Positions 6,076-59,774 of a stretch of 64,000 nucleotides of DNA are shown here, piece by piece. A program made the position numbers and the translations under genes. The notes beneath the pieces were generated by a model. That model saw only the letters and a program-made list of their open reading frames with translations, did not search any database and had not been told where the DNA came from. The DNA lies in assembly GCF_020085105.1 (NCBI RefSeq), contig NC_058062.1, forward strand, positions 7,615,945 through 7,679,944, read 5' to 3'. How positions within the stretch are numbered: position 1 is the first letter of the stretch; every line of letters starts with the position of its first letter. Origin of the DNA: Siniperca chuatsi. Its lineage: Eukaryota > Chordata > Actinopteri > Centrarchiformes > Sinipercidae.

Positions 6076-7762
6076 ATGCCAGAAACAGCAGAAGCTGTGT
6101 CAGCCACTCTCACCACCAACAGAAACTGCACCATAGAAATAACCAATGTCAGCAGTAGCTACTGCCTTATCAACCCCAAGTAAGTCTGTAAATGTATTTA
6201 CCAATTTAATACATTAAATGTGATTAAATGAACATACAATTTGAGATCAAACCAGATTGGATGAATAAACAAAAATGTAAAAGTACAAATTAATGAATGA
6301 CATCATACAGTACATGCAAAGATAATGTGATGAAAATTGCTATATATTAAAAACTGTCTAGAAAATGTAGGTAACATTCATTTTAATTAACCTTTTTTTC
6401 TTTTGGAAAAAATGCATCTCTTTGGAGGTCAGTGCAGGTTAGCTAAGTCTGTTAGTTACCTGCATCAACATTGTTTTCTACACAGAGATAAGTTGCTGCA
6501 AAGTATCATGGGCTGTCTGTGCACTCAGGTTTGATTGGTTCCAGGGAGAAGTATTCATTTTCAAAAGGCTTAATGCATTGTTTTGAAGTGCCTTGAGATT
6601 GCAATGCCTGATTACAGCTCCAAATCAGCATCCTGATAGTATTAGCATGCAATACCTATTGAAGTATCCATAACATTTTTCTCTCTAATAGTCATGGAAA
6701 AAGCACAGATTTCCAGCATAAAAGTCTATGCTAATTCAATGTGGTTATACTGTACTTAATTATAAGTAAAACTCAGTGATATTGCAAGTGAATTGCCAGT
6801 GTACCATCTCTTTAACATAAATATATGATTCGATTTACTTTGGTGCCTATTTCTCAACAAGGCAATCCCTCAGTTTCTTCCACTTCTGCTAAAAAGGGAA
6901 AATTAATTAAAACAACAATAAAATCAATAAAATGACCCATGTCTTTAGGAATTTCCACCAAGCTTCTACATTTATCTCGCTGTGGCAGGACAGACCATAT
7001 CTTGGATGGGTGGTTTTCATGTGTGACATCACTTTGCTGAGAATATCCACCTATCCATCATGTAGTGACACACACTGCCTCATTGCACATTGCATGCAGG
7101 TACACTCACTGTTGCTTAGAAGTCCACAGCAGTACTTGTACAGTCACACTCCATCCATCAGCATAAGGTATTTCAGGTATCCTGGAAAGCCCAACTCAGA
7201 AAGTACACTGACAATGTCCAAACAAACTTACAAAACTCTTTTTTTTTCATCAAAAGTCTGGGAAGTGTGACATAAAAGTTATCAACTCCTTGGTAGTGAT
7301 GGTAAGGATTTGTCTCCTGCTGTCCTGTATAGGGTATACATGGCAAGTGGCTTCTGTCACCACCCGCCTCAGCCTACGATTCGTACCACCAAGATCGAAG
7401 TGTGCTCTTTCATCAAGGATGACAACACTGCCACAGGCACTGTTGGCATACTGACCTACGACCTGTTCCATATGCAGAGCCGGGTTTGCTCTGAGCGCAT
7501 GGCCATTATGTTCTCTGTGCCCTTTGACTACAACCTGTACAAGAACCGGCTGGCTGTGGGTGTGGTTGAGCATTCTCGTGCCTGCGACAAACATCTGTAC
7601 AACCAGATGTATGATGGGAATGACCTCAGTAACTTCACCCGCTCTGAGACAAACGGATGTGGGCTGGAATATAAAGCTACATATGTTGATTTGAGGGCTA
7701 CAATGTCTTCTATTGGCAAAGCCATTGTTAAAGTGGAGCTCTATGATAAAATGGGTCATTAG
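6076..7762 (+). CDS. Actinoporin-like protein, copy A
   Basis: Two coding exons, 6076-6179 and 7333-7762, encode 177 residues. The donor is gtaagt, the acceptor tatag, and the intron follows codon position 2. The family (sea anemone actinoporins and related animal, plant and fungal proteins) folds as a beta-sandwich that binds phosphocholine/sphingomyelin membranes. The diagnostic block is present as SVPFDYNLYKN (residues 96-106), followed by a Cys-Asp-Lys turn and a tyrosine pair near 124-128. Only about 15 residues precede the first strand, so most of the amphipathic pore-forming N-terminal helix of anemone proteins is absent. There is no signal peptide. Compared with the next gene, residues at aligned positions 99, 107, 108 and 113 change from W, W, F, Y to F, R, L, V, which removes aromatic side chains from the lipid-binding face. 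Poly(A) signals lie at 7819 and 8013. Lipid binding or cytolysis is inference only. Confidence 0.88.
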
Positions 7763-9202: not shown

Positions 9203-9871
9203 ATGATGGAGTCAGCTGAAGCTGTAGCAGCCGATGTGACCAGTAAGAGAAGTGTTATCATTGAAATCTCAAATGTCACCAACAACTACTGCCTCATCAA
9301 CCCCAGGTAAGCCCTGACTGCGTTGGAGTCCTGTATTTTAAGCCTTGTTTGAAATGTATTATACAGATCCCAAAAAATTTGTTTAATGTATGTTTCTATT
9401 TGTGTACTGGTTAGAGTGTACCTTGAGAATGGGGAGACATACAACCCACCTCAACCCACAGTGCGCCCTCTAAAGACAGAAGTCTGCACTTTCACGAAGT
9501 CCAGCGGCAAAGCAACTGGCAGCATTGGTGTACTGACCTACGACCTTTTCGAGAGGTCAAAGAACGACCACATTGAGACTCTGTCCATCATGTTCTCAGT
9601 TCCCTGGGACTACAACCTGTACAAGAACTGGTTTGCAGTGGGCATCTATAAAAAGGGCCGCAACTGTGATAAGGATTTGTACAAAGAAATGTACTATGAG
9701 AAGAACCAGCACGAGCATGGATTTGTCAGGGAGGAAGCCACTGGTTCAGGAATCAATTATGTGGGCAACTACCTAGATATCAAGGCCACCATGGGTCCCT
9801 TGGGCAAAGCCATCATGAAGGTGGAGGTGTGGGATAAGCTTTTCACACCCATGGGCCAGCACGCATACTAA
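9203..9871 (+). CDS. Actinoporin-like protein, copy B
   Basis: Two coding exons, 9203-9306 and 9415-9871, encode 186 residues. Exon 1 has the same length (104 nt) and intron phase as copy A, and the two proteins align without gaps through the core, so they are tandem duplicates. Here the intron is only 108 nt. The block SVPWDYNLYKNWF (residues 96-108) and tyrosines at 113, 124, 128 and 129 keep the aromatic cluster that contacts phosphocholine headgroups in this family. The N-terminal stretch before the beta-sandwich is short, as in copy A, and there is no signal peptide. Two ATGs stand in tandem (9203, 9206). A weak TATA-like ttataag at 9174 is too close to the ATG to be convincing. Poly(A) signals lie at 10201, 10254 and 10259. 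This copy looks more likely than A to retain membrane-lipid recognition. That is inference. Confidence 0.9.
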
Positions 9872-18814: not shown

Positions 18815-21800
18815 TCAGGAGCTGCCATCCCCATTCTTGGTCTTGAGCACAACTAGGCTAACCATGACGGGGATCAGGCAGATGGGAGTTATCACCAGGG
18901 CAAAGACGATGACTGGTGGTGGGTCGCTTAGCTCCTCTGTGGGACAATCCTTGAAAAACTTGGAGTGAATGTCCACAAAGGTTTGTTCCACCAGAGGGTT
19001 GGGCCATGGGATCAAGAGACAATCAGAAATCTTCTCTGTGCAAAGGCTTAGGTTACTATATGAACTGCAGTATGGAGACAGAAAGTATATGGAAGATTTC
19101 ACACTGTACACTGTATTTTGTTGTATTATATTTAACAATCTTTTGTTAAATGTGCAAATGTGAACACACACTACTTACCCGCTCACATTACCCCAAATGC
19201 ACAAGTCACTGCTGTTTAGTGATGCCATTGCATGCTCAAAATTGAAGAGACATAGATGGTCAAACAGTTTGGAAAGGCAATCCATTGTTGGTGCACCATA
19301 AATATCATAACAGAAGGAGCAAAAGTCCATACAACTGTGAGAATTATTCCCACAAACTGCATGAATTAAAGAGTTAGAAAAAGAAAGAGAAGAGGGAAAG
19401 AGTCAAAAACGAGAGAGAGAGGGAGACATTGAGGCACATTAGAAAATGACAATAAAGATGTGTTGGACATCTTCAGAAGATCTCCATTAAATTATTTGTT
19501 TACAGAATGATATAAGGTTGTATGGCTATGTATGGTTATAAAGTTATGTCACCTACCAAATGATAAGGTAGGATCTCCATAAGTGACATCTAAAACAGAG
19601 AAAAATAAGATTTTTAGATTAAAACCCTTTACATAAAACAGTAATGTAGACCTTCTTATTCAGTTCATTAAAGAAGTTCATCAAAGACATGCATCCTAGC
19701 AAGTTTCAATGCAAAGATATTTTTGGCTATCGTAGCTGATGAGCTCCTTCACATGTCTAGTACTGAGGCAGGCATTTGCAGCTGTATAAGGGAGACCACA
19801 CACTCACCAGAGAGAAAGGAGAGGAATACCCCAATGAAACCAAGTGCTCCCTTCATGTCAGAAAAAATGAATAAATGTGCGTTTTCCCCAACTGATGACC
19901 ATGTATAATAAAACTAAACTTCTTAGACTGTGTACAGCGAGGCATAACAGGAAACCCGACAGGATGGAAGAGACGCAGTGTAACCTTCGGTTACCAGATG
20001 TCCAAACAGTGTTACCCACGGTTACCAGATGTTCTTCGAAGATCTGTCTGACGGCCCTGCGCCTTGGTAGCAGCTCTTCCTCTCCAAAACACGTTTCTTT
20101 AGGATTTTCTTCCTCTTTTAAAGGGGTGGAGGCAACAAAGATTGTCCTCTCCATTCTCCCAAATAAAAGGGAGCACACCCAAGCTGGGCTGGACTCACAT
20201 CTGAAAACCCTTTACTCTTTAACTCTTGTTCTGCTTTTTAGTCTCAGTTTCTCACAGTCAAAGGCCTGGCCAGCTCACAGCATGTGATTTATTTGCCTTT
20301 TGGGCTCCCTCTGCCAAATAGGAAACATAAGTAAACATTTAGAGCTTAGCTTTGTAGCTAGTTTGGGGGTGGATGTAATCATGACTCTGCAGGGTGTGCT
20401 GTGCAGACAGGCATGATTTCATATGTAGGTTAATTTGACCAAACCTGGAAGAAGTTATTAGTTGGAGCTGTCCAGCTATTTAAAAGGCCAACTATCTTTA
20501 CAAACACTTACTAGTAAAGAAAACAAATTGACATTTCCACCACAAGTGTGGAAAACTTTTGTTTTTCATGTCATGAGAAGCTCCTGGGTGTGCTGCATCT
20601 ATAAGGTAGTTTCTCACTGTCACCATTCACCACTTAAAAGAGCAGTGTGAGAGAGGTGGTTTCATTGATTGAAAGAAAAATGAAATGTATGGTTCATGTT
20701 TTCTCATGACCAACTTGTTCATTAATGTCACTGAATCCACATGTTGGGCCTCTCACAACATCTGTTTGCCGAGCAGCATTTTGATTTAGTAATGACATCA
20801 GGAAATGTGTCTTTTCAGCAAAGGAGGAGCTCAGAGTTGGGGGGAGTTGGCAGGGGAAGGAGGTGGGACAATCAGGGGAAAGAAAAAAAAGGAAGGATGA
20901 GGAACAGTGAGAGGGGAGCTGCTCCAAAGTTCCAGTTGTTTCACAACTTGGAGTTCATGCGTTGATCACAGACGTTGCATGGGGTGAATGACGAACAAAT
21001 TCAGGAAGTTGAGCCAGGTGGGGGCTGCTCATAATGAGGTCTGAGTTAACTTTTAACCCCAAACCATTATGGGTCTTGTGTCTACTGCTGTTGACCTCTC
21101 ACTGGTAGAGACCTCCCCAGGAGTTTGTCTTGGATTCTCATGACAATACACACAAGGAGATCTTGGCAGAAACCAGGATCTCAGAGTTCTGCTTTCTGTG
21201 TTTGTCAATTCTAGGCCAGGCAAATGAGTTTAAGGAACTGATCCAAAACAATCTCCCAGTGGACACAAATATATAATCATTATTTATAACTGTAAAATAC
21301 AGAGCATGTAAATAGCGCTCATGTAATTATTTATTAAACTAATTAAAGTAAGATTTAATCAAAACCTGACCATTTGCAGATTTCATTTATTAAGGAGACA
21401 CAGACATGTAAGTGACAGTCTCTAATAATGTATAACAGAAAAAGGTTCTAAACTTACTGGCATTCATTGTCTCTGTTGAGTGATACCCTGTAGAGAAAGG
21501 AGGTCAAGTTCGTCAAAGTATTTATGGTCATGCATGAGATATATTTTTTTCTTTTTTTCTTTAAAATACACATACCTATTGTCATAGTGGGTCCCACCAC
21601 TAACTTTTCATCAACCAGACAAACCACTGTTGTGCATCCTGCTATAAAATAAATAAAGTAATGGGCAAACTGAATATTGGAATAAGATGTAAAGTTTAAA
21701 AAAAACTGTACAATTTGTAACAGGAATTATTAGACTGAATTATGATAGATAATCCTATATATACACATTTCAGAACTTGTGAAAGTAGAGGAGGTAAAGG

Positions 21801-27579: not shown

Positions 27580-30500
27580 ATGGAGGAAACAGCTGCTGCA
27601 ACCCCAGCCCCTGGCGCTAGTACTGCCCCACCAACACCAAGACCACAGCTTTCCTCCTTTGCGCCCTCCCAGAGCCTGCTAGAGTGGAGACGGAGGGTCA
27701 AGTCTGAGTATATGCGCCTTCGCCAATTAAAACGCCTTAAAAAAGCAGAGAAGGTCAAGGTGGGTCAACCCAATTATTGACAGTTCTGCATATAAACAAA
27801 TGTATGCCTGTGTACTGTATGCATGGTGTGGGGATGTGCAGTAGGTGTGTGTTTTATATACAGCAGTCACTGTGTATGTTTATGTGCCCAGTGCATGTGA
27901 CATGCTCCTTGTTCTGTTTGTTTCTAGACCCTGTACATGTCCAACAGGCAAAAGATTGAGCAGCAGACAAATGTCCTGAATGCAGAGTGGTCCAGGCTCA
28001 GAATTCAGTCCATCCCTCTGTCAACTTCTAGTGGAGCTCTTGCCAGCAAGAAGGTGTGTGAGTATGTGTGTGTGTTTTTCATGTTCTTATATCCCGGTGG
28101 GGACTTTAACCTGAATGCACACTAACCCATGGGGACTTGTGTCACCGTGGGGACAAAAATTGAGGTCCCCATGAGTAGAGACTGCTTTTTGAGGGTTAAG
28201 ACTTGGTTTTAGGGCACAGTTTACAATTAGGTTAGGGTTAGGGTAAGGGTTAAGGTTAGGCATTTAGTTGTGATGGTTAAGGTTAGGGTAAGGGGCTAGG
28301 GAAAGCATTATGTCAATGACTGTCCCCCACGGGGATAGTGTGTGTGTGTGTAATGTGCTAAAGAGAGTAAAATGATAGCCATTGCAACACATAACTTTAC
28401 ATACCATCGTACCTGCACTGTCCAGCTCAGTCTTCATATTCCTGCCCAGGCTGCTCTGGCTTAACTAGTAATTCAATCTATTATTACTGTGTGAATGTGT
28501 TGTGAGAAAACTCTTCATGTCCATCATGTTGAGTCATTTTCACCAGCCCCAGTATACTGTTCTGACTCCCACCTGGCTGTCAGGTGTTACTAAAATATCT
28601 CAGGACAAAGCTGTGTGCCAAAAATGGATCATATGGCAGCCTAAAAGTGGTCCTGGCCCTGTTGGAGCTAGTGAGGGCATAACAGCATCTTTCTCTTCCC
28701 ACATGCTGTCAGGGTCCACTTTATTGTGTTTACTGGGTTTATTTTCCCTGTTTGGTGTCAAGCAGCATGTGTATTCAATTATATATTAATAATAATTATA
28801 TAACCCAACCCACCTCTGGTTCTCTTACAGATGTGTACAGTGGAGTTTGGCTTCCCAGCATTCAAAGCTCAAGCGATTGCCATGAGACCACTGTCAACAG
28901 TGGCAGGAATCCCCTTCATGTACTCCTGGTCGCCTCTGCAGCACAACTTCATGGTATGAAATAAACCACAATGTGTTGTGGGTGATGCAATTACAGCATT
29001 ATTACAGGGACAGGAGCACACTTTATATAATATTTTACTCATTCACCTGATCCCAGTTTTGAAGATTTTCATGTGTTCAATGGAAATAGACATGATCCTC
29101 TGTGAGTTTATTAAATTCTACCAGTCGTGGATTTTGGAACATCTAAACCAGTTTAATGAACTCAAGAACACACAAGCAAAAGCAAGGTTTCCAAAAAAAA
29201 AACATTTTGAAAATAATAATAATAATAATAATTTTTACCAGCAAAAGGTGACATGCTCACAGAACATAGACACACGCTGCTCTTGCAACACAACTTGGTT
29301 TACATTTCTTATATTTCCAGTCCATTTGTGTACCTTTGTTGGACTGTGAAATGTCCAGAGGCAGGAATATGTGAACATTTTGTGAACTATTTGCTACTAA
29401 CAGGTCAGTGTACTTGTTTGTTACTTTGGTTTTCAGCTGTAGGCCATAAGCATCACAGGTGGTGGTGTGACATGCAACATCAGCTGGTCGCATACCTGTC
29501 TTGACAGGAGTTTTTGTTTCTTAGGTGGAGGATGAGACGTTCCTTCACAACATTCCATATATGGGCGACGAAGTGCTGGAACAGGACGAGGCCTTCCTGG
29601 AGGAACTCATCGACAACTACGATGGTGTCCATGGTGACAGAGGTGTGTGTTTAATGCTCTGTGCCGTAAAGATGTCTGCACAGATCCCATAATCTAACCC
29701 CTTTCTTATTGTATATATCACTGCAACATTCACTTGGGAATTTGATGATGTAGCTGATGCCATTCTTTAGCATTTCTGGATGCCTGTGGAAAACATAAAT
29801 ATTTAAGGGATTCTGATGTGTTAATTGTTTCCCAGAAGGGGGGTTTATCAGTGACGAGATCTTTAAAGAGCTGGTGGAGGCCTTGAGCCAGTACTCTGAC
29901 CACGAGGAGGAGGAAGAGGAGGAAGCAGCAGCGGCGGCGGCAGAGATGACAGGAAAGAAGGAGGACGAGAGAGTGATGAGGAGCAGCTCAGTGGAGGGTT
30001 CAGAAGAGATCAAACCTGGTACTGTGGCATTCATCAGGAGGAAGAGGAGGAGCACTACTGAGGGTGAGCAAGTCTTCAGCTGTGTGTTCAGACTTTGTCC
30101 TGCGAGAGAACAACAGGGCTGCAGCATGAACAGGGCTGGTACTGTTCCTCTCATTACACTCTACAGCTGCCACAAGGTTGCCCTGCCACAGCAGCTCTTG
30201 CACAGGCATTGTTTACTTTAAAGCTGCCCATGTGTCCCTGCATGGGTACTGTGTGTGGGGGAACCTGTTTGTCCATGACACTGATATGGCCAGCTCTAAT
30301 TACAGAACTTAATGACCTCTTGTACCAGGCTTTATGGGAAACTAGGCTGTATACACCAACCCTTAGTGATAGTGAAATGGAAGCACATCTGGCTACACGT
30401 TCTGCTACTGGTACACAAATACATCAATGGATGAGGGGTCCATGAATATAAACACACAAAAAAGACGCTAAAAAAGGAAAACTACACTGTTTGTATTGCA

Positions 30501-32782
30501 TCATGATTTTCACTGAGAACTGTTTTCAGAACATGTTATTGCTAACTGGCCTTGAGCATTAGGAACACTTCTGTACCATTGCAAAATGTTTAAAAGAACA
30601 TATTGCATAAGATTTATTTGTGAATCTGTATCAAAACCTGATGTGTGGACAAAACTGGGTTATTTGTGTAACCAACTCTGTTCACTGTCTCTTTCTGTCT
30701 CCCAAAGTGAGGGACTTGTCCAGCAGCAAGAAGGTCCCCAGCGATAAGATATTTACAGCCATCGCCTCAATGTTCCCTTACAAGGGCACCATGGAGGAGC
30801 TGAAGGAAAAGTAAGAAAAGTGCAGTGAAAATGGGGATCTATGTGCACAATGCTGAACAGGCTGTTGCTTAGTGTTCACCATGGAGACGCAAGCTGTCAG
30901 GGAGGAAAGTAATAATGGTGGCTCCCTCTCAGGCTCTCTAACTCAAAGGAGCAGTTGCATCAGCATCTGAAAGAGTTTTACTTAGAAAGAAACATCTATA
31001 CCACATGAGCGTACTAATACTGTGGCAAAAGAACTGTACACAGGTAATATATATATTACTACTAAAACTCGCCCTGTCATCTTCACAGGTACAAGGACCT
31101 CTTGGAGCCCCCCAGCCCGGTAAAGCTGCCCCCCCTCTGCACCCCCAACCTGGATGGACCTTTTGCTAAGTCTGTGCAGCGGGAACAGTCGTTACACTCC
31201 TTCCACACACTCTTCTGTAGACGTTGCTTCAAATACGACTGTTTCCTCCACCGTAATGGCTTGATTTATGTTTATTATTATTATTATTATTTCTCCTGCA
31301 GATTAATTTTAGTTTAGGTTTGTTGATTCCCAGTGAGATTGTGATAAATACTTTAGAATTATACTATGACTTCCCAGCCATTTTTTTGTGCGCCTTGGGT
31401 GTTTTATTTACTTATTTGCGTACAGTTGCTAACTACTAATCACCTGATGTCCAATAGAGAGTCAAAATATGTTTGTTTGCATTCATAAAGCTTTCCATGC
31501 TACACCCAATGTTTACAAGAGGAAGAGTAAGGAGATCCGGATGGAGACTGAACCATGTGGTGTAGACTGCTTCCTGTTACAGGTATGCCAAGCTCACAAT
31601 TATTTACCTATTCATGCATTCTGTACACTGTAGTACTGTTGTTTACTCTTTGTGGTTTTTCCCATCCCCTATGCTCTGCTGAAGAAAGGGGCTAAAGAGT
31701 TTGTGAATCAGAATATGTTACGATCACAGAGGTCTCGGAGGCGCCGAAGGCAGCAGCGTCCCACCAGCTCCAGTTGTCCTGGACCATCTGGGTCTGCTGA
31801 GGAAGGCAAAGAGGGCGACAGTGACCATGAAACCACCTCCTCCTCAGGTAGGAGTCTGATCTGACAGAAACTGGGATTGGAGCTGCTTTTGAAACCACCA
31901 GGTGCTTTGTCTACTCTAGCCAGGACGACTAAGGGAGTTATGCAAAAGGTTCAGTTTATCTAAAAGTTTCTTATTTTGGAGTTACTTTGACTTGCTACTA
32001 TATATTGCCTATTGTTTTGAGATTTCCATTTTCTCAGCTAGTCTAAAATAAATGTACAGATCTGGTAAATTGTGGAAATGACTGTCTACTTTGAGGCATC
32101 ATACAGTATAGACAGTGTTTCTGAGTCACTGTATGACTGACTGGATGCATCATTTACCGAAACGTCCCTCAAATCCCTCCCTTTCTGGAAGGCTGTCTGC
32201 CCTGACTGACTGCAGCCCTTCAGAAAAGTGAAATTTGACTGAAGATGATAGCTTTCAAGTCATATCCTGTTCTCTCCTCTGTCTCCCTTCTTACATCTCC
32301 TCTCAATATCAGCTCTCTCTTGCCAAGCAAAATAAACCAGCCATTAGTTTTGCATACTTCAGCCCCAACATAAACACTTTGTTCCCTCTCCCCCTCCTCA
32401 TACTGTTTTTTTTCTGTTGACATCTTCTTGTGGAGAGCAGCAGGGGGGAAATAAGAGCAATCTTCCCTGGCTCTTTATCGTCCACTCCTCCCCTGGAGCT
32501 TTCAGGTTGTTGTTCATCGCCATCAGGGCCTCACTGGAAGTCTTTGTTAGTTTTGGAAACTGCTTATGCTCAGCCAGTGACTCAGCAGACTCTCTTGCAC
32601 GTGTTGAGATAATGTGGAAAAAACAGATTGTTGAGTAGATTAATAAAGATACTCAGTGCTGGGGCATGTGGCTACAGCAATGCTGCATTCAGCTTGTTGC
32701 CAAGCAACATTCAGCTCTCTGCCTCGAGCTGTGGGTGTACAGGCTGGAATATCCAGAAAGCTAAATCAATTCCTATGGTCCC

Positions 32783-32844
<62 letters not shown>

Positions 32845-33028
32845 TAAAAATGGCAAAGGGTTAAATTAGCACGAGTGATGTGTGTGTGCAGATAAAATGC
32901 TGTCTAAAACCTTTTGCCAAGACCAAGTAATAGAAAAGTGTTTGTGTGTGCAGCTGCATGTGTGTAGATTCAAAAATTATGAAACAAACTTTCTGCCAAA
33001 AGTATTTAGTCAGTGATACTAAAGTGTT

Positions 33029-33080
<52 letters not shown>

Positions 33081-36000
33081 CAGAGGGGAATTCGCGGTGC
33101 CAGACTCCCACCAAGCTGCGTCCAGGGGATGATGACGGGGAGCAGCAAGCATGCTGTGTGGTCCAGTGGAGCGGGGCCGAGGAGTCACTGTTCAGGGTGC
33201 TACACGGCACATACTTCAACAACTTCTGCTCCATCGCTCGCCTCATCGGTACAAAGAACTGCAAGGAGGTGAAATGTTCACACTCTTAACAGTTTTCCCA
33301 TCTCAGCATGTTTCCTCTTGTACCATAAGCAGAAGATGTGCACTAACTTTGCTGTATTCATTCACCATTTAAACAATGTAGTGACTGACTAATAATGATT
33401 GATAGCACATAACAAATTATGGCTTATATCTAAACAAATTATGTTTCTTTAAGTTGCTACATATAGGATCAGACTCACGATGTTTAAAAGCAGAACCAAA
33501 AATATCGTCTTTTTTATTTCACGCGTTCTTATTCCTTGTCAAAACCTGGTACCTACATTACCCACAATGCAACTACCGGACCGCCGACAATTCAGTCTGA
33601 GTGTGTTATGCTAGTAGTGGCTAATGTAGCTATGAGCCGCTAGCCTCAAGCAGAGATGAGGAGCGGGCCTCACATCTTTCTAACTCCATTTTATTTATTT
33701 TGCCATTTTTAACTTGTAGTCTTCAGCTCCAACCAATGTTGCCTCTGGAGCCACTAAAGGCATCAAACAACATTTTTCACATATGCAGTAATACTCCCCA
33801 AGACCTGTAAACAGATTTTGATGTGTAAAATTGGTTGAGTTCCCCTTTAAAATGCCAGATGCTGGAATGAGAAAACACTTCAGTAGAGTAGAAAAGAAAG
33901 GGAACACACATAAAACAAGGGCATGGAAAGAGAGTGGTGACAAATAGGAAATAAAAGCAAGAGCATTTATAAGAAATGAGGTCTTAATTTTAGAGAATTA
34001 GCACTAACAGTAAAAGCACAGCAATTGTACATCTGTTGTTTACTAGCTATATTAGCTATGAAATATAGTTTTAAATGTTAAATAATGAACTCTGACTAAT
34101 ACGTTCTGAAACTGACACATTGTTGTTTTGAAATGAAGCAGACAACATACTCACGTTGCTGATTTGTGTTGCGCTTGCGTCAATGGGAGTGTAATAACAC
34201 ATGCATCCTGTGCCTGGTTTTATGGTGTGGATAATTGGGCTGACTACAGAGAGAATGGCATGTGGCATCATTAACAGGGATGCTTACCAGATGTGACGTC
34301 TCTCATATTCTCTCATGATTCAGTCTTAGACATTCTCAAACTTATGTCAGTTGAGTGTCATGTGGGCTGTGCATAAGCCTTGTAGAAAATATTTTACAAC
34401 TTCTAAATTAGATTTCAAAATGTTTTACTTTTGAGCACAATGCACAGTAAAGATCAGGTAAAACAAATCTTGACATATTTAAGTAATGTTGAAGCAGGCT
34501 TGCCCATTTACATCCAACCCCTGTAGCGCCTCTTGTCCCACGGCCAGACCAGTCCGGGGGCTGTATTGGACTGTCTGTCACAGCCCTGCTGGCATCCAGA
34601 GGGCCCCGCCCACTGCTTAACTAAGTGGAAATACTGAAACCAGCTGCATCATTATGTATGTCTGTGTCCGAGGGAAGAGGCCAAATCTGTGTATTGGCAG
34701 CCAAAGGTGGTTGCATGTGTATGTTTGGCTTCTGCAGTGGAGTTTTGATAGCAGAGGATGGAGGGGGCAGGATGGAGGGGGCAGGATGTTCTGTGGCGTA
34801 ATCGTGGCGATGTGCTTTTCAGCTTGAACGGCATTACATTACACAACATAATTATGATGAAGAGAACAGAATTTCCTCACAGCAGTGTACATTTGTGATA
34901 AATTAGCAGGATGTGTTGTTCATGTCATTTTCATTTCCCACAGGTGTACGAGTTTGCAGTGAAGGAGGCCCTTATCCATCGTGTTCCTTTGGTTGATGGA
35001 GGCATCTCGCCCCAAAAGAAAAAAAGGAAACACAGGCATGATATCGCCAGTTATTCTCCCTCTCTTGCCCTCCCTTTGCTGAATGATGGAAACATGATCA
35101 CAACATGATCTCTTGCTAAAGGGAGCTTGGCCCTCAGTGAAACTTCCCTGAATAGATTAAGGTTAAATAAATAAAGTCATGCAGAAATAAATGTATTCTG
35201 CACTGTTGCATTTGTATTAAAACTGCATTTGGTCTTCCTGTCACATTTAAATTTTTGTCACTCAAGTGAATTAACTGAATAGGTGTGGAACAAGTTAGAG
35301 GAGTTTTTGACCAAGCTGAATAAACCCTGTAATTTGTTTGTTTAATGTGGTAGGTTATGGGCAAAGATTCAGCTAAAGAAAGGTATGTTCATCTCAAAAT
35401 AAAACGTCACAGCATGACTATTACTACACTATGCCCTCTGAAATACAACACAGCTTACTGTGCCAGTCTGAGGGCTTTGTCCTCTGTTGCTCTAGATAAC
35501 TCATCCAATCAGGTGTTTAACTACCAGCCATGTGATCACCCCGATCATCCATGCGACAGCTCCTGCCCATGTGTGATGACCCAGAATTTCTGTGAGAAGT
35601 TCTGCCAGTGCCAGCACGAGTGTGAGTGTCACCTTTCTTATTCACCTTTGAGACCATGCTGTCATATACTGTATGCATTTTTTCTTTCTTAAACAAACAA
35701 AAGCACACAATAAGCTTGTTCTGCCTTGTGATACTAAAAGAAAATTGTTTGTCATAACCACATTTTCCACTGAAAGCTCTCAGTAGCTTTAAAGCCCTTT
35801 TGCCAGGCCACAATAGAGCAGGGCAGCAGAATGTAAAACGATTCTGCAGTGTTCTGGCAGTGGTCAGAGGAGAAACTGTCCTCTGGCGAAGATAGGTGGG
35901 TGTCTGTTTATTACAGAGCTGCGTTCACAAAGAGGCATTCGCTGCAGCAGCAATGACCCAGAACTGTGTTTTCTGAAATGGCCACATGGTGGAGGAATGC

Positions 36001-37903
36001 ATTTTGTTTTTTGCTCTCTGGAGAGTATACAAAAAAGAAAGAAGATAAGATGAAGTAAACATTTTGCTATGGTTTGGAAAAGATGGTTTTGCCTAATTTG
36101 TTCTTCTGTTGTGGTTCAGTCACCTTCTCTCCCCCCTTGTCCTTACCCTACTGTTACCTCGCCTTTTCCCGTAGCAGAGGAGAGCCAGGGCCAAACAGGA
36201 AGCAGCCCTCGGTTGCACATGTGTGTGCTCTAACAACTTGGAGAGAAATCAAAGGGATGTGACACTGATCAACATCATCTCCAACATCAGTATGAGTCAG
36301 ACAGCTCCAGCTAAACAATGCTTGATAATACAGACACATAAAACCCACACAGGCTGGGAATGGGAGGTTAAAACGGCACGACAGAGAAGACGAATGCTGC
36401 CTAGAGCTCTTGTTATGGACAGTTTTCCCCAAGCAGAGTCTGCTGGAAAGACATTTCGGTTATTCTTGCCTGATCCTTCCGTTCATCTGCCCGGAGGGTG
36501 TTATGTTACACTCTGCAAAATTGCATTTCAGCATATCTGCCAGCAGAGGTCCCTGACGGATGGGCTTCTCAGCATTACTCAGCCATTGAGCTTCTGTTGT
36601 GCAACAGCATTTTGAGATGGAATTATTTATCATAATCATGTTGTGTTCTGCCAAGTCATGTTATGTATTATCTTTCTGTATTGCTGCATGCAGTTAACTC
36701 ATAAAGCTTTTCAGAGCAGCTGTCTGTCTAAATGTTTTCCAGGCCCGAATCGCTTCCCAGGCTGCAGGTGTAAGACACATTGCAACACTAAACAGTGTCC
36801 CTGCTACCTAGCTGTGAGGGAGTGTGACCCAGATCTTTGCATGACCTGCGGCACTGCAGACCACTGGGACAGCAAAGGGGTCTCCTGCAAGAACTGCAGC
36901 ATCCAGAGAGGCCTAAAAAAGGTACACAAGGACACTTGAAGGTCTAAGTGGTTAAATGTTTCAAATCTGATATTCTGTTAATCTGGAGACAAGTTAGTGG
37001 TGCTTAGATCACTCATATGACTTGTGGTGTCCTAACCTGCATCTGACTTCTCTCAGCACCTGCTTTTGGCTCCATCAGATGTTGCCGGATGGGGCACCTT
37101 CATTAAAGAGTCAGTTCAGAAGAATGAGTTCATCTCTGAATACTGCGGAGAGGCAAGCCCATGCAGTTTAGTCAGATTGAAGACATTTTATTTACAAGCT
37201 CTCAGCTTGATTGAAGTTTTGTACTTAAAGTGTTTATTATTCCTGTGTGTGTGCATGAGCAGCTGATCTCCCAAGATGAGGCAGACCGACGTGGAAGGAT
37301 CTATGACAAATACATGTCTAGCTTCCTTTTCAACTTGAACAATGGCAAGTATTCCCCACTCCCTCTGATCATAACCATACCATGGTTATATTAAGTAACT
37401 CTTAATGTACTCTATGTTTCTCAGTAGACTTCGTTGTGGATGCCACGCGAAAGGGGAACAAAATCCGCTTTGCAAATCATTCAGTTAATCCCAACTGCTA
37501 CGCAAAAGGTAGGAGTCAGTTTGTTTTGCTTTTAAGTCAAATATGAATGGATAGGATTTTTGTGGGATGAAAGCAGTCTTTTGTTGGCTGATGTTATGTT
37601 TGCTGCCATTGCAGTGGTAATGGTGAATGGAGACCACCGTATTGGAATCTTTGCCAAACGAGCTATCTTGAAAGGAGAAGAGCTCTTCTTTGACTACAGG
37701 TAGAGTCACGGGCCTTTTTGTGACTCTCCATCAGCTTCAAAGTAAAATAAAAAACAAGGTTGCTGTACATTGTGACTGAATTACTAGTTTCTGCAGATAC
37801 TGTATACTAACTCAGAGTCTTTATATCATCTTCCTCCCGCAGATACAGCCAAGCCGATGCCCTCAAATATGTGGGGATAGAGAGGGAGGTAGACTGTACT
37901 TAG
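27580..37903 (+). CDS. ezh1: Histone H3K27 methyltransferase EZH1 (PRC2 catalytic subunit)
   Basis: Nineteen coding exons: 27580-27759, 27928-28053, 28831-28953, 29525-29642, 29836-30063, 30708-30810, 31089-31252, 31491-31582, 31685-31847, 33084-33268, 34944-35035, 35354-35382, 35496-35621, 36743-36921, 37057-37152, 37263-37344, 37428-37508, 37615-37699, 37843-37903. They join in one frame of 770 residues (human EZH1 has 747). The N-terminal [17 protein letters not shown] is the EED-binding helix. An acidic and alanine-rich loop follows in exon 5. The CXC domain is at about 540-636. The SET domain (637-755) has SEYCGE with Tyr665, NHSVNP (712-717) and FFDYRYS (747-753), so substrate and SAM sites look intact. 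Introns 11, 15 and 16 start with GC. Exon 12 lacks four residues found in vertebrate EZH1/EZH2. The choice of EZH1 over EZH2 rests on the RAMP2/CNTNAP1 neighbours and on details such as VVMVNG. The enzyme mono-, di- and trimethylates H3K27 in the nucleus. Confidence 0.96.
28087..28345. repeat. Dispersed repeat with telomere-like core in ezh1 intron 2
   Basis: Blocks rich in 'ggtgggga' and 'gtccccat' flank a core of imperfect GGTTAG/GGGTTA units (about 28,190-28,300). The outer GGGGAC/GTCCCC motifs are inverted. This pattern is typical of a non-autonomous repeat common in fish introns. It does not overlap an exon. Confidence 0.7.
32785..32838. repeat. (GT)n microsatellite in ezh1 intron 9
   Basis: Twenty-seven uninterrupted GT units. 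Confidence 0.95.
33033..33077 (+). repeat. (TG)n tract abutting the ezh1 exon 10 acceptor
   Basis: About 22 TG units end six bases before the splice site: the run is followed only by 'taaacag' and then exon 10. It therefore occupies the place of the polypyrimidine tract. Confidence 0.95.
33470..33852. repeat. Dispersed repeat, copy 2, in ezh1 intron 10
   Basis: Same orientation and block order as the copy at 22,908-23,352, with small internal deletions. It lies wholly inside the intron between exons 10 and 11. Confidence 0.85.

Positions 37904-42620: not shown

Positions 42621-59774
<17,154 letters not shown>

Follow-up and report, generated by a model that had tools for sequence, protein, structure and literature searches.

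How are three introns of the ezh1 gene, in which GC stands where all other coding introns of the gene have GT, to be understood? They may be ordinary GC-AG introns that are spliced out constitutively, sites of regulated splicing, or products of assembly error. We addressed this question within the window (the whole 64,000-nt stretch of DNA analysed here) through the gene model, the protein it encodes and the strength of its splice sites. The model and the protein domains that matter below are as follows.

27580..37903, + strand: ezh1 coding region, 19 exons and 770 aa, supported by the spliced ORF, the match to human EZH1 and Pfam domains
Residues 60-89 of Ezh1: EED-binding segment (Pfam)
Residues 583-613 of Ezh1: CXC (Pfam)
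Residues 647-750 of Ezh1: SET (Pfam)

With exon ends set from the sequence, the spliced frame is open over 2313 nt, spans 18 coding introns and ends in TAG. Human EZH1 (PDB 7kso) was the best match to the product (residues 30-769, E=0), with EZH2 chains next, and the Pfam families in the product are WD-repeat-binding (EED-binding), PRC2_HTH_1, MCSS, CXC and SET. Human EZH1 aligned over residues 9-746 in one stretch and human EZH2 (PDB 5hyn) nearly full length in three, both with identical domain order, although the acidic stretch around residues 205-260 differs. A zebrafish study gives A544T, A569T, I631T, I650L, C668S and M705V as Ezh1 marker substitutions, and K661R with V662I as markers of ray-finned-fish Ezh1 (PMC6416316). 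Reading the alignments by hand, and assuming that the published positions follow the numbering of the 751-aa EZH2, we found 8/8 marker residues in this protein, including both ray-finned-fish markers. Judged by its sequence, 27580-37903 codes for a ray-finned-fish Ezh1. The exon 14 peptide had no ezh relatives in viral and prokaryote sequence collections, as expected there.

Fifteen of the 18 introns are GT-AG, and three carry GC at +1/+2 with AG at the 3' end, as U2-type GC-AG introns do:

35036..35353, + strand: intron 11, GC-AG, 318 nt, donor CAG|gcatga, acceptor tttaatgtggtag
37153..37262, + strand: intron 15, GC-AG, 110 nt, donor GAG|gcaagc, weakest-scoring acceptor of the 18
37345..37427, + strand: intron 16, GC-AG, 83 nt and the shortest of the 18, donor ATG|gcaagt

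A previous sequence-only reading had placed the donors at 35035|gcatga, 37152|gcaagc and 37344|gcaagt, and all three are present as exon ends of an open coding sequence. Its count of 3/18 coding introns, with introns 15 and 16 adjacent in the SET region, is borne out by our gene model. The protein reads KKKRKH-R-LWA, YCGE-LISQ and FNLNN-DFVV across the three junctions, as in human EZH1 save for a four-residue gap inside exon 12, and junctions 15 and 16 sit inside stretches identical to the human protein.

That reading had also held that the protein frame forces the GC donors, with no nearby GT keeping the conserved residues. We scanned for GT-AG alternatives whose GT lay between a point 7 nt inside the upstream exon and a point 40 nt short of the following one, with an intron of at least 60 nt and any AG of the intron or next exon. 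This yielded 10 in-frame, stop-free alternatives for intron 11, 21 for intron 15 and 3 for intron 16. None of those listed individually (8/10, 8/21 and 3/3, respectively) keeps the conserved residues: each inserts or deletes some of them, and each has a donor score below that of its GC site. A GT is also present at +4 of intron 16 and at +14 of intron 11, and both would shift the frame.

Given that the coding sequence is open with exact junctions, that it is identical to human EZH1 around junctions 15 and 16, that no listed GT alternative preserves the protein, and that the donor flanks score above the GT mean (see below), we conclude, with a probability of roughly 85%, that this ray-finned-fish ezh1 has three ordinary U2-type GC-AG introns, which probably arose by T-to-C change at the donor and are mostly spliced constitutively to give full-length Ezh1. 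Each GC donor would probably have arisen from GT by a T-to-C change at +2. Introns 15 and 16 may tolerate the C because the remaining donor (gcaag) should pair well with U1 snRNA, and intron 11 retains CAG|gca.g around its GC. The spliceosome would then use these sites most of the time, and full-length Ezh1 would result. Counting against this view are the density of 3/18, which local base composition does not explain, and an intron 11 donor that is off consensus at +4 and +6.

Alternatively, one or more of the three donors could be a GT that assembly or base-calling error turned into GC. Changes of this sort can occur in error-prone assemblies, but here three independent substitutions would be needed, all falling at +2 of real donors without disrupting the frame, and we consider this very improbable. 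The donors of cntnap1, in the same window, speak against it as well. The sequence-only reading had found no GC donor among 23 cntnap1 introns; this stands for the 22 donors that we located, all of which read GT (19 from a scored table, those of introns 2, 22 and 23 by eye), and leaves out intron 1, which was not located. Several cntnap1 junctions offered more than one GT option. At intron 3 (54217-54274, - strand) there is also a GC candidate, GAG|gcgagga, which lies 57 nt further downstream than the GT and would add 19 residues in frame; by donor score it outscored the GT donor at this junction, one of the 19 tabulated. Our choice of the GT here rests on human CASPR2: in its match with the GT-joined protein, 115 residues of the query face 113 of the chain, lengths that leave no room for 19 extra residues.

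How unusual is it to find three such introns in one gene? The GC-AG rate in human coding genes is 0.8% (PMC7242645), and the consulted portions of PMC7072748 and PMC8321248 gave no rate for fish. The probability of at least 3 GC-AG introns among 18 is 3.8e-4 at 0.8% per intron and 7.3e-4 at 1%, figures that apply to one gene before any correction for how many genes were examined. Using round figures of our own for gene and intron numbers, one would expect about 0.8-1.6 genes with at least three GC-AG introns among 20,000 genes of 9 introns, and about 1.6-3.0 among 3,000 genes of 20 introns. Thus, 3/18 is rare, yet within what one genome should contain by chance. A GC-rich local bias was considered as a cause and rejected, as introns 11, 15 and 16 have 37% GC versus 40% for the window.

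These introns resemble the vertebrate U2-type GC-AG introns described by Abou Alezz et al. 2020 (PMC7242645) in their GC donor and AG acceptor, in the shortness of introns 15 and 16, and in the low acceptor scores of introns 15 and 11. They differ from the class as described there in that three fall in one 18-intron gene and two are adjacent, and the same paper reports that few human coding genes have more than two GC-AG introns per transcript. In the literature records consulted, nothing combined "GC-AG intron" with EZH1, and the only match with EZH2 was a review on metamorphosis and lncRNAs. The ezh1 gene with three GC-AG introns is a further case of an already known kind; three of them in one conserved chromatin gene offer a natural case for studying the origin and tolerance of GC donors.

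The three donors had been described as weak, a description that holds only in part. With +2 left out, and using a donor matrix of approximate frequencies, the GC donors scored 4.03, 6.31 and 6.46 (introns 11, 15 and 16), whereas the 15 GT donors averaged 3.11. When +2 was included as a mismatch, each GC donor matched the consensus at 6/9 positions, and the GT donors at 4 to 7 (mean 5.7). A good donor consensus outside +2 is typical of the GC-AG class, and all three donors have it, intron 11 the least. For GC-AG introns as a class, donors and acceptors weaker than those of GT-AG introns are nonetheless reported, as well as shorter lengths (PMC7242645). For introns 15 and 16 at any rate, calling the donor weak is misleading. 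The weak sites here are two acceptors: that of intron 15 scored lowest of the 18 (-4.05) and that of intron 11 fifth lowest (-0.11); that of intron 16 was middling (2.55). Separately, at the acceptor of intron 9 (33033-33083) a (TG)n tract replaces the normal pyrimidine tract, with a score of -2.47, the second lowest of the 18; the length of this tract could affect exon 10 inclusion.

It is also possible that the GC donors are old, shared with ezh1 (or ezh2) of other fish and held by selection instead of being a product of recent drift, an idea that we hold tentatively and at somewhat less than even odds. Human EZH2 splice variants c.1505+3delG and c.1505+1G>C have been reported, and we take the c.1505 donor to be at the intron 11 position. 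The first of these variants fits a G at +3, so the flank there differs at least, which argues against shared donors. In favour of age, 47% of human GC-AG genes are shared with mouse (908 genes), the ordinal position of the intron is equal in more than 75% of the shared cases, and some cases are conserved as far as fugu and zebrafish (PMC7242645). The literature searched, as far as it was accessible, contained no human EZH2 donor variants at c.2029+ or c.1490+, though c.1947+ or c.1932+ does occur in it, and the consulted part of a paper on EZH1 in neurodevelopment (PMC10336078) named one acceptor variant and gave no donor base.

The sequence-only reading had suggested that weak donors can make splicing regulated, and that retention of intron 11 would add a stop ahead of CXC and SET. 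The predicted stop held up: it would fall at residue 548, before both domains, and the 24 residues added up to that point would begin with the native Arg. If intron 15 were retained, 37 residues would be added before a stop, and for intron 16 the number would be 16. The exon that follows intron 11 is itself short:

35354..35382, + strand: exon 12, 29 nt, encoding (R)LWAKIQLKK without AHCR, supported by the gene model and alignment

Skipping this exon would lead to KHR and a stop at residue 525. In either failure the EED-binding segment is predicted to be kept while CXC and SET are lost. Intron 11 together with the 29-nt exon 12 is therefore the most fragile point of the gene as predicted, since either retention or skipping would truncate the protein before its catalytic part.

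A rival reading is that intron 11 and exon 12 form a regulated on-off gate, at which retention or skipping lowers or redirects PRC2-Ezh1; we think this unlikely. The outcome would be a product with the EED-binding N-terminus but without CXC and SET, or degradation of the mRNA. Both failure modes truncate at once, exon 12 is very small, its acceptor scores low, and the EED-binding segment lies upstream of the truncation, all of which would suit a gate. However, most stop-containing introns and most out-of-frame exons would act alike. TGC, a motif of neuronal microexons, is absent from the final 40 nt of this intron 11. A cytosolic Ezh1 beta of mammalian muscle is reported to sequester EED (PMC6921592) and provides a model for the putative truncated fish product, with the difference that Ezh1 beta is a reported isoform, whereas the fish form is predicted from the genome. 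Human genes with a GC-AG intron are also more often multi-isoform (84.9% versus 68.9%; PMC7242645). Against a gate, zebrafish Ezh1 is not required for development, according to the title of PMC6416316.

Ordinary GC-AG introns, the reading that we prefer, leave the content of exon 12 to be considered on its own. The size of this exon, its four-residue loss and the KHR-stop on skipping were absent from the sequence-only account. The fish exon reads LWA-KIQLKK, and human EZH1 and EZH2 both read LWAAHCRKIQLKK, so that the fish has four residues fewer in its bridge helix/automethylation loop than either human protein (PDB 7kso and 5hyn). The conserved form of the loop is R-LWAAHCR-KIQLKK, with an Arg before the first automethylated Lys; in the fish AHCR is absent and an Ala precedes that Lys. 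A six-frame search of the window for the exact motifs AHCRK and WAAHC found no further version of exon 12 that includes AHCR.

On nucleosomes, the automethylation loop of EZH2 takes the form of a bridge helix, and EZH1 is described as conserving this loop (PMC11980035). In EZH2, R504 touches the backbone at H3K36, R497 touches DNA and Q507 the H3 tail (PMC11832421), and among EZH2 loop peptides only K510me3 stimulated activity, an Arg at -1 being thought necessary (PMC11980035/PMC11832421). From the alignment, the missing block is predicted to include R504 in the numbering of the 746-residue chain, and by our reckoning this would also be the Arg at -1 to K510 when residues are counted on the 751-aa protein. 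The loss of these four residues may matter more than the GC introns.

A combined view is that exon 12 has been remodelled twice in this fish lineage, as an RNA gate to an EED-binding, SET-less form and as a shorter helix with altered function; we rate it slightly below even the gate taken by itself. If it were true, the RNA gate would consist of the upstream GC donor, the weak acceptor and the 29-nt length. The bridge helix would have lost roughly one turn, and with it the Arg that in EZH2 touches the backbone at H3K36 and stands just ahead of the key automethylated Lys. In this fish, PRC2-Ezh1 would then no longer be coupled to trans-activation driven by automethylation, and its reading of H3K36 would differ. 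The role of the bridge helix in automethylation and H3K36 sensing is an active research topic, and the shortened helix, if real and common to relatives, would be a natural mutant of this part of PRC2.

Elsewhere in the window, a fragment of an ORF at 18815-19174 (- strand) matches the RAMP family (E=4.9e-29), and by its sequence this ORF is probably ramp2. The order ramp2-ezh1-cntnap1 presumably mirrors the human neighbourhood. Two + strand ORFs, at 7271-7762 and 9353-9871, look alike by eye; the first, the one that was scanned, contains a fragment matching Pfam Anemone_cytotox (actinoporin-like) at E=1.4e-13.
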